Assembly (NCBI GenBank): GCA_005883305.1
Contig: VBAC01000001.1
Coordinates: 1,488,001 to 1,552,000 of the forward strand
Source of the DNA: Alphaproteobacteria bacterium
Lineage (GTDB): Bacteria > Pseudomonadota > Alphaproteobacteria > Sphingomonadales > Sphingomonadaceae
DNA: 64,000 nucleotides
Direction of reading: 5' to 3'
Positions 45,262 through 47,584 of this stretch are shown here, piece after piece (position 1 is the stretch's first letter; every line of letters starts with the position of its first letter). The notes beneath the pieces are model-generated. The model saw only the letters and a program-made list of their open reading frames with translations, was not told the DNA's origin and did no database searches. A program made the translations under genes and the position numbers.

Positions 45262-45379
45262 GAGTCATCCCGGCGCAGGCCGGGACCCATGCACACCGAC
45301 GGGTGAAAAAGGGGCCGCAAGTCCCGAGCTGCTTCTGCCAATACAGTGTTCATGGATCCCGGCCTTCGCCGGGATGACT
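45262..45379. repeat. long palindromic repeat (GAGTCATCCCGGCG family)
   Basis: Same family as 6132 and 8042: gagtcatcccggcgcaggcc and its inverted partner around about 60 bp, between the PH-domain gene and the phhA stop (45222-45418). No gene is visible in this gap. Confidence 0.85.
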
Positions 45380-45418
45380 GTGTAAACGAAAACGCTCAAC
45401 CCCTTTTAAGTACCGACC

Positions 45419-46207
45419 CTAGGCCGGATCGAGGTCGGGCTGGCCTTCCAGCGCGTCATAGAGTTCGGGCAGTGCGACATCGTTCAGCATGCCGAGCAGC
45501 GCGTCGAAGCTCGGAATGACGAAATAGCTCTCCTGGAAGGCGTCCGAGCGGTAGCGGGTGCGAAGCACGCGCTCGATCTCGAACGGCCGGCGCCGCGGCT
45601 TCGGGCTTTCAAGCGCGAAGTGGGCCTCGCCGAAGCTGGAAAGAAGACCGGCGCCGTAGAGGCGAGTCTCACCCGCCTCCTCCGCAAGCCCGAACTCGAC
45701 GCTGTACCAGTAGAGCCGCGACAGACGATGGAGCGCCCCGTGCTCGATCGCCGCCAGCCCTTCGGCGCCCATCGCCTGCATGAAATCGGCGACCGCCGGC
45801 TGGGCGAGCAGCGGCACGTGTCCGAACACGTCGTGGAAGACATCGGGCTGCTCGATATAATCGAGGCTGCCGCGAGCGCGGATGAAGTTGCCGGCCGGGA
45901 AGCGACGCTTGCTCAGATGCTCGAAGAACACGTCGTCGGGCACCAGTCCGGGGACCGAGACCACCGTCCAGCCTGTGCGCGCGAACAGCCGCTCGTTGAG
46001 CTCGTCGAAATCGGGAATTCCGGGCTTCGACAGCTTGAGGACGTCGAGCCCGCTGAAGAAGTCGGAGACCGCCCTCCCCTTCAGCTCCTCGGATTGGCGC
46101 GCGAAGAGCAGGTCCCACACGGCATGCTCCTCGCGGGTAAATCGCTCCCAATTCTGGGGGATCGTCCAATCGCCCCTCTGGGCCTTGATGATGGTCTCGG
46201 TCAGCAT
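45419..46207 (-). CDS. phhA: phenylalanine 4-hydroxylase
   Basis: This 262-residue enzyme hydroxylates phenylalanine to tyrosine with tetrahydropterin and iron. The iron ligands are visible: two His in DVFHDVFGHVPLLAQ and Glu in YWYSVEFGLAEE. Length is typical of bacterial monomeric PhhA without the mammalian regulatory domain. The RBS GTGAGGAAGACCA precedes the ATG. Upstream lie a terminator (46222-46256) and a Tyr-rich leader peptide (46287-46346), so its transcription is probably controlled by tyrosine-dependent attenuation. That would give it a biosynthetic role, not a purely catabolic one. Confidence 0.95.
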   Translation of the reverse strand: MLTETIIKAQRGDWTIPQNWERFTREEHAVWDLLFARQSEELKGRAVSDFFSGLDVLKLSKPGIPDFDELNERLFARTGWTVVSVPGLVPDDVFFEHLSKRRFPAGNFIRARGSLDYIEQPDVFHDVFGHVPLLAQPAVADFMQAMGAEGLAAIEHGALHRLSRLYWYSVEFGLAEEAGETRLYGAGLLSSFGEAHFALESPKPRRRPFEIERVLRTRYRSDAFQESYFVIPSFDALLGMLNDVALPELYDALEGQPDLDPA

Positions 46208-46221
46208 TGGTCTTCCTCACG

Positions 46222-46256
46222 CAAAGAAAAACCCCGCCCGGAGGTCCGGACGGGGC
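46222..46256 (-). terminator. attenuator terminator upstream of phhA
   Basis: On the minus strand CCCCGTCCGGA-CC-TCCGGGCGGGG (46255-46232) makes an 11-bp stem with one U-G wobble, followed by TTTTTCTTT. The wobble pairs only on this strand, supporting minus-strand use. It ends about 20 nt before the phhA start, after the leader peptide, so it would abort phhA transcription when formed. Confidence 0.85.
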
Positions 46257-46286
46257 GTATCTGAAATCTGGCTTGTTAAGCGCGCG

Positions 46287-46346
46287 TCAGATCGGTCCCG
46301 CCCGGGCGAGCCGATAATAATAGACGGTTGCGATCATCGTGCGCAT
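46287..46346 (-). CDS. tyrosine-rich leader peptide of phhA
   Basis: This 19-residue frame reads MRTMIATVYYYRLARAGPI and stops 80 nt before phhA. Three consecutive TAT Tyr codons (46322-46314) are characteristic of attenuation leaders. The 3' part CGGGCGGG (46304-46297) can pair with CCCGTCCG of the terminator 5' arm (46254-46247), eight pairs including one G-U, forming an antiterminator. A ribosome stalled on the Tyr codons leaves this segment free, whereas one that reaches the stop codon covers it. No strong RBS is visible. The role is inferred from architecture. Confidence 0.75.
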   Translation of the reverse strand: MRTMIATVYYYRLARAGPI

Positions 46347-46378
46347 TGGTTCGTCGGTCGCTTTATCATGCCTGTCTG

Positions 46379-47584
46379 TCAAGGGGCTGAACGCCCCAGA
46401 TGGGCCGCGAGTTGCTCCTCGATCTGGCGGAAGGCAGAGCGGCCGCGCGGCGGATCGTCGCCGTTGCCGGTGGAGATATAGGCGATCCCGGTGCCGGTGC
46501 GGATGTCGATCCACAGGCCCGAGCGCACGCCATAGGCGTCGCCGGCATGGCCGATCATGATCCGCCCGCCCCCGAAAAGATCGTCGTTGCAGCCGGGGGC
46601 GGCGAGTGGAAGGCTCTGCACAGCGAGGCCATAAGCGCAGTAGAAGCCGCCGTCGGTATCGCCGTTGGCGCCATCGAAGCGCCACTCCGGGCCGAGCATG
46701 GCCGTCAGGCTCTGCTCGCTGAGAAACGGGGCGCCCTGGTGCCAGCCGCGGTCGAGCAGCAGGCGGCCGACGGTGACGAGATCGCGCACCGACACGCGCA
46801 GGCCTCCCTGGGGCGAGAAGAGCGCGCCGTTGCTTCCGGGCTCATAGGTGGAGAGATCGCACCCGGACGGCGCCAGCACCGGGCAATCGGGGCGATGGCC
46901 GCCGAGGTCGTCGCGCATGACCGCTCCGTCGGCTCCGTAAAGCACGACCGCGCGCGCAACCGCCGAGTCGCTGCACGTCGTCCAGTTGAAGCAGGCGTCC
47001 ATATGGAGCGGACCGAAAACGAGGCGCTGCATCAGCTTGTCGAACCGCTCGCCGGAGACTCGCTCCATCGCCGAGGCGATCACCGGGAAATTGAGGTTCG
47101 AATAACGGAAATAGGCTCCGGGCGCGTGCTCGGCGTCGAACGCCGCCGGGTGGGCGAGCGCCTGGCGCAGCGTCGTGCCGAGCGGAATCGCATAGTCGAT
47201 CCCGTCCTTGAGCGAGGAGCGGTGGCCGAGCAGCAGGCGGAGCGTGACCGGCCGCTCGGGAAAAGCCGGGTTTCGCAGGCTCCAGCCGAGATAGTCCGAA
47301 ACGTCGCGGTCGAGATCGAGCTTCCCCTGCTCCACCATCCGTATCACGCCCAATGCGACGACGAGCTTGGAAATCGACGCGATCCGCACAGGATCGTCGA
47401 TCGTAAGCGCCCGCCCCCGCGCCCGGTCGGCGAGGCCGGAGGCGCCGGCGCTGTGGATTCGCGAGCCGTCGAACGTCGCCCAGGCATAAGCGGGCGCCGG
47501 CGAGGACGGAGCAGGCGCCGCCTCACGCGCCGGCACTGTCGCGCAAGCGCCGAGCATGAAGCAAAGGATCGGCAGCCGGGTCAT
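46379..47584 (-). CDS. class C beta-lactamase-like serine hydrolase (lipoprotein)
   Basis: This 401-residue protein has a lipobox (LPILCFMLGAC, Cys14) and a beta-lactamase/esterase domain with SxxK in RIASISKLVVALG, YSN in YFRYSNLNFP and the C-terminal HAG triad equivalent in MIGHAGDAYGVRSG. Family members are peptidases, esterases or penicillin-binding-like proteins; the substrate is unknown. It is upstream of the phhA leader on the same strand with 32 bp between, so readthrough into phhA is possible. Confidence 0.85.
   Translation of the reverse strand: MTRLPILCFMLGACATVPAREAAPAPSSPAPAYAWATFDGSRIHSAGASGLADRARGRALTIDDPVRIASISKLVVALGVIRMVEQGKLDLDRDVSDYLGWSLRNPAFPERPVTLRLLLGHRSSLKDGIDYAIPLGTTLRQALAHPAAFDAEHAPGAYFRYSNLNFPVIASAMERVSGERFDKLMQRLVFGPLHMDACFNWTTCSDSAVARAVVLYGADGAVMRDDLGGHRPDCPVLAPSGCDLSTYEPGSNGALFSPQGGLRVSVRDLVTVGRLLLDRGWHQGAPFLSEQSLTAMLGPEWRFDGANGDTDGGFYCAYGLAVQSLPLAAPGCNDDLFGGGRIMIGHAGDAYGVRSGLWIDIRTGTGIAYISTGNGDDPPRGRSAFRQIEEQLAAHLGRSAP

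Follow-up and report, generated by a model that had tools for sequence, protein, structure and literature searches.

Leader-peptide attenuators of amino-acid operons are a classic kind of regulation. The trpL/rnTrpL leader of S. meliloti is such a leader-peptide attenuator and at the same time a leaderless precedent (PMC7298713, PMC10117765). A T-box controls phenylalanine-4-hydroxylase in the Bacillus cereus group (PMC2494555), and putative attenuators taken from the Merino website are reported before tyrA operons, e.g. hisHb-tyrA of Agrobacterium (PMC1173090). The cysS leader uORFC-8-2 of Rhodobacterales is a candidate for ribosome-mediated attenuation (PMC8632094), and a paper of 2005 places tyrosine under T-boxes, and histidine, threonine and phenylalanine under attenuators (PMC1262725). 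PhhA, phenylalanine 4-hydroxylase, is already known as a biosynthetic enzyme (PMC7311316).

The window (the whole stretch of DNA analysed, 64,000 nucleotides) possesses, upstream of phhA, what we read with a probability of roughly 0.88 as a transcription attenuator of phhA that is mediated by the ribosome and responds to charged tRNA-Tyr. Like S. meliloti trpL, this candidate combines tandem codons of the regulated amino acid, a mutually exclusive antiterminator and terminator, a biosynthetic gene downstream and an alphaproteobacterial host, and its leader ORF may likewise begin at the 5' end of the RNA; unlike trpL, its codons are Tyr instead of Trp, and its target would make Tyr by hydroxylation of Phe. 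With the B. cereus T-box it shares an orthologous activity, antitermination at the RNA level and a type of element that reads tRNA charging, but the T-box binds tRNA directly, whereas in the phhA leader a ribosome would read a leader peptide. None of 4227 Rfam families reaches its gathering score in the 64-kb window, and the T-box model is unmatched. The Agrobacterium hisHb-tyrA case likewise concerns an alphaproteobacterium and a tyrosine-pathway gene for which attenuation is predicted, but its gene is tyrA and the sensed molecule is unstated in the excerpt consulted. The uORFC-8-2 leader, also an alphaproteobacterial candidate with tandem codons of one amino acid, differs in its Cys codons and its aminoacyl-tRNA synthetase target. 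In Dyella and Legionella PhhA is, as proposed here, a biosynthetic route where prephenate dehydrogenase (PDH) is missing; the excerpt consulted mentions no attenuator there. A Tyr leader peptide on phhA was not found in the open-licence literature, nor in the excerpts of PMC2965389, PMC4833913 and PMC4117421, in agreement with an earlier note on this DNA, which knew of no described Tyr attenuator on phhA. Thus, as far as the open-licence literature is concerned, the type of attenuator and the biosynthetic PhhA are known, and the tyrosine specificity and the phhA target were not found described.

Layout of the leader locus

All features of the locus are located on the minus strand. The phhA gene (45419-46207) encodes a phenylalanine 4-hydroxylase (Biopterin_H, PF00351; Pfam score 149.5 bits, cut-off 22.7), the one match of this family in its own genome. 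It is preceded by a 19-codon leader peptide ORF, MRTMIATVYYYRLARAGPI plus stop (46287-46346), to which related leaders exist in relatives and which contains the proposed sensor, three consecutive TAT codons (46314-46322). A 1:2 hairpin (pause/protector, 46291-46315) reaches -13.6 kcal/mol in the fold of the isolated RNA segment. The antiterminator segment CCGGGCGGG (46297-46305) is predicted to pair at -15.2 kcal/mol with the 5' arm of the terminator (46246-46256), which according to RNA fold and alignment is common to both structures. RNA fold and terminator scan place the 3' arm at 46231-46241, and sequence and terminator scan the T run at 46223-46231. The terminator stem (46256-46231) consists of 11 pairs, 9 of them G-C, followed by TTTTTCTTT, and its hairpin reaches -23.8 kcal/mol. 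A Shine-Dalgarno-like AGGAAG (46212-46217) is recognizable from the sequence. The earlier note had described this layout correctly as regards the 19-aa frame, the three TAT codons, the stop codon and the 11-pair stem, but had put phhA 20 nt beyond the terminator; the gap between the T run and the phhA ATG (46207) is 15 nt. The segment just after the Tyr codons, CGGGCGGG, is located at 46304-46297 as the note had given it, and it pairs with the 5' arm of the terminator.

Two further features of the region were recorded. A GCGC stretch directly after the leader stop (46286-46281) is largely conserved in the genus alignment, and an inverted repeat with CCCGGC...GCCGGGA-like arms, recognized by eye downstream of phhA (45265-45380), resembles a dispersed repeat.

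The predicted leader promoter comprises a -35 box TTGACA (46377-46382), identified by its position relative to the leader start, and a weak matching -10 box GACCGA (46359-46354); a consensus scan of 45300-46600 finds no full sigma-70 site. In 23 of 27 leader loci a TTGACA-like box (at most one mismatch) is found 35-38 nt ahead of an in-frame start of the leader; in leaders with several possible starts the one at this distance was taken. The four loci without the box are the g77 leaders among the 27. The -10 boxes are weak, and several leaders have more than one possible start codon. Given a 17-nt spacer, a box at this distance would put the transcription start on the ATG or no more than about three bases away from it, which suggests that the leader mRNA may be leaderless and read from its 5' end.

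Alternative folds of the leader RNA

In the proposed mechanism RNA polymerase would start at, or very close to, the leader ATG. If tyrosine is scarce, the ribosome would stall on the Tyr codons and block the 1:2 hairpin, leaving CCGGGCGGG free to pair with the 5' arm of the terminator, and transcription would continue into phhA. If tyrosine is plentiful, a ribosome at the stop codon would cover the CCGGGCGGG segment and the terminator would form. The PhhA made under scarcity would convert Phe to Tyr.

Folding of the window RNA is consistent with such a switch. Cut at the edge of a stalled ribosome, with the 3' arm not yet made, the RNA has the antiterminator as its predicted fold; the cut was placed by the generally known reach of a ribosome. 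Once the 3' arm is complete, the terminator is favoured over the antiterminator, and switching would therefore have to take place while the RNA is being transcribed, as it does in known attenuators.

In an alignment of 20 leaders, 92.2% of the cells in the antiterminator columns are standard pairs, vs 33.6-63.3% when the columns are slid. Alignment columns 37 and 92, an antiterminator pair, are paired in 20/20 rows, as G-C in seven, G-U in seven and A-U in six. The antiterminator covariation score is 0.154 vs 0.120 in shuffled alignments, and nine of 500 shuffles score as high. In the comparison of upstream regions in relatives that the earlier note had called for, the Tyr runs are conserved, and the terminator stem has no covariation beyond shuffles (20 rows). 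The latter result is uninformative because seven of ten stem pairs never vary; one pair is mismatched in 8/20 rows. The ends of the leader peptides vary (ARAGPI, PGTGPI, ARTGTD) despite a constant G-rich RNA segment, an indication that selection acts on the RNA rather than on the end of the peptide.

Against shuffles preserving composition only, the antiterminator duplex stands out (p <= 0.05) in 23 of 40 leaders. These passes are distributed unevenly, with 22/24 in the window's own genus and genus g45, the window included (L095 and L103 fail), and 1/16 in g77, for which the antiterminator is accordingly not claimed. The g77 result, a failure in 15 of 16 leaders, is what could be cited for a mechanism in which the Tyr stretch acts by ribosome pausing on translation or Rho instead of antitermination. 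We regard this as improbable, since the support for the antiterminator in the other two genera stands against it, as does the intrinsic-terminator hairpin, located 25-34 nt past the leader stop codon in 40/40 leaders measured, 12 of which had been detected with a model that itself contains the hairpin.

PhhA as a probable route to tyrosine

The genome to which the window belongs (G000, 99.8% complete) lacks detectable PDH (PF02153; 14/14 control genomes positive), prephenate dehydratase (searched as PF00800; 14/14 controls positive) and chorismate mutase of the CM_2 family (PF01817; 13/14 controls positive). The PDH controls refer to the genus search and to that of g77 and g45; in a search of 298 family genomes 13/14 were positive. 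With all three undetected, the strain probably imports phenylalanine, from which PhhA would make tyrosine, and PhhA is probably the only Tyr route of this genome, fed by scavenged phenylalanine. The gene downstream of the leader would hence make the sensed amino acid, phhA being identified by Pfam homology and PDH not being found. That phhA serves to make Tyr, as the earlier note had proposed, is supported by the missing PDH and by the gene context in relatives described below.

Among the 26 genomes of the genus, PDH is present over cut-off in six, prephenate dehydratase in 18 and CM_2 in 23. PDH and the leader occur together in five of them (G001, G006, G008, G016, G024), so PhhA is not the sole Tyr route throughout the genus. 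None of the six genus tyrA loci with PDH over cut-off has a Tyr leader before tyrA. The 24 genomes of g77 and g45 contain no PDH over cut-off and three weak matches. One of these three, L223, was rejected as a candidate PDH, as its protein is NAD_binding_2.

Besides the window's genome, G007 and G011 lack detectable PDH, prephenate dehydratase and CM_2 and keep phhA, the Tyr leader and hpd (4-hydroxyphenylpyruvate dioxygenase, Tyr breakdown); for all three, Phe auxotrophy is predicted from gene content. In G002 and G025 of the same genus phhA, PDH and prephenate dehydratase were not found and hpd is present, and auxotrophy for both Phe and Tyr is predicted.

The presence of hpd in 25/26 genus genomes, including that of the window, means that gene content also allows a catabolic use of PhhA. 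The Tyr leader might accordingly regulate a phhA that mainly serves Phe/Tyr catabolism via 4-hydroxyphenylpyruvate and homogentisate, and phhA is indeed common in PDH-bearing relatives. In the family, PDH is found in 265/298 genomes (E <= 0.001; 263 over cut-off, the two weak matches including G168 of g77) and phhA in 254/298, i.e. by subtraction in 223/265 PDH-bearing genomes, so that having phhA is not in itself linked to PDH loss. We nevertheless give a mainly catabolic role little credence, because a gene switched on under Tyr scarcity fits synthesis and not breakdown, because PDH was not found in the window's genome or over cut-off in any of the 24 g77 and g45 genomes, and because phhA stands behind genes of the aromatic pathway in relatives.

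This gene context is most complete in G022, where one strand begins, by Pfam, with a chorismate mutase-DAHP synthase fusion and continues, beyond an intervening stretch, with prephenate dehydratase, chorismate synthase, dehydroquinate synthase, shikimate dehydrogenase and PhhA in this order. In G024 prephenate dehydratase, chorismate synthase, dehydroquinate synthase and shikimate dehydrogenase precede phhA, and a class I DAHP synthase follows. Both genomes possess the order pheA, aroC, aroB, aroE, leader, phhA. EPSP synthase, prephenate dehydratase and chorismate synthase are located upstream of phhA in G004, and in G019 the leader is closely preceded by prephenate dehydratase. The window neighbours of phhA are a PF00144 protein of beta-lactamase fold, a bPH_2 protein, an HNH protein, GrpE and HrcA. 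The upstream genes thus differ (PF00144 in the window, aroE in both G022 and G024), but the leader is retained next to phhA.

A tentative reading, to which we would give clearly less than even odds, is that the leader was an internal Tyr attenuator ending a chorismate-to-Phe cluster, where it would have set the split from Phe to Tyr by tRNA-Tyr charging. It would have been kept with phhA when the cluster was dispersed and also, in the genome of the window, when the Phe branch was lost, and would there now govern Tyr made from scavenged Phe. In this reading the leader RNA, leaderless and some 124 nt long when terminated, might also function in trans like rnTrpL.

Distribution and conservation

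Within the genus, phhA is present in 22/26 genomes. The leader's conservation with its hairpin, on which the earlier note had staked its claim beforehand, is found upstream of phhA in 21 of these 22 genomes, as a Tyr-rich leader plus terminator, and in two more genera. In the 22nd (G010) a run of N covers the leader site, and in G019 the leader lies at a contig end with phhA beyond the visible sequence. Among the named records in this leader-bearing group are Sphingosinicella terrae (L002), which has PDH, and two further Sphingosinicella with the leader and no detected PDH, sp. LHD-64 (L003) and sp. CPCC 101087 (L005); L002-L005 were taken as G024, G021, G015 and G009 and counted once. G003 has a second phhA with an identical leader peptide (G003:C1:1236-2138 and 3023036-3023954; L104, L105, L088), for which the match is split in two close to the start of the contig and which is possibly an assembly overlap of contig ends; L104 and L105, at this second place, were left out of the counts.

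The Tyr leader further occurs in 2/2 genomes of g45 and in 16 genomes of g77. All 26 PDH-lacking family genomes outside the genus possess phhA (13 of these genomes are listed and 13 inferred from numbering gaps, and the total agrees with the tally). The leader is present in six of the 26, two of g45 and four of g77, and phhA occurs without it in the remaining 20 (L112, L113, L116, L117, L121-L136); an anabolic phhA therefore needs no leader.

A search of 396 genomes of the order with RNA models (R1 and R2, the latter with stricter filters) yields 18 matches of at least 45 bits, all in the window's genus, g45 and g77. Each of the 15 that were read is a Tyr leader of phhA; the other three, in the window's genome, G017 and G069, are already established leaders. 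Weaker matches are mixed, as 12 were read and comprise one phhA leader (G101) and 11 sites like ordinary terminators, so that the 27 order-search loci read amount to 16 phhA leaders and 11 loci resembling ordinary terminators of other genes. In g77, six genomes out of 22 (G410, G411, G423, G454, G467, G524) have weak RNA-model matches only. Since R2 used stricter filters and few of the weaker matches were read, divergent leaders may have escaped the search.

On a tree of 84 PhhA proteins, whose bootstrap had not settled, the leader label needs two changes, vs a mean of 23.7 for shuffled labels; L083 was labelled leader-bearing with its Tyr codons in an N gap. The exception is L016, Sphingomonas daechungensis, which is nested among leader-bearing PhhA and has no leader. 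Its phhA directly follows a gene which, by eye from the translation, we take to resemble shikimate dehydrogenase. L014 (QDFQ01000002.1), titled Arthrobacter sp. TPD3018, carries a PhhA 60% identical to the query that falls among the sphingomonad ones, possibly from a mislabelled genome.

Conservation with phhA, and not folding energy, is the ground on which chance is ruled out. The fold energy of the 140-nt leader is unexceptional (z -1.57; 18/200 shuffles equally good), and in 1.3 kb there are two overlapping terminator-like sites, including the leader terminator, vs 0.9 expected by shuffling, so that the terminator alone is unremarkable. All 27 leader loci contain at least two Tyr within five codons (at least three in 22/27) and an intrinsic terminator between leader and phhA. 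Their Tyr codons comprise 75 TAT and 15 TAC, those of six window genes 22 TAT and 15 TAC. A detector, devised after leaders had been seen, is positive in 27/27 leader loci and in 0/120 other phhA upstream regions, namely 0/76 named loci (L006-L081, L016 included, PDH status untested), 0/24 PDH-bearing and 0/20 PDH-lacking ones; these controls, the best match per genome only, partly overlap (the proteins of L010 and L178 are identical). The idea that the hairpin is merely the 3' terminator of the upstream PF00144 gene, which ends at 46379 on the same minus strand, and that the Tyr ORF arose by chance, has the frequency of terminator-like sites in its favour and is very improbable, given the outcome of the detector and the leader and terminator that precede phhA behind other upstream genes as well, i.e. 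aroE in G022 and G024.

If the reading as a tRNA-Tyr-sensing attenuator is true, tyrosine would be added to the amino acids sensed by leader-peptide attenuators. The leader would also offer evidence, obtained from sequence only, for a biosynthetic phhA in one lineage of bacteria, and this could be of use wherever PhhA is assumed to be catabolic by default.
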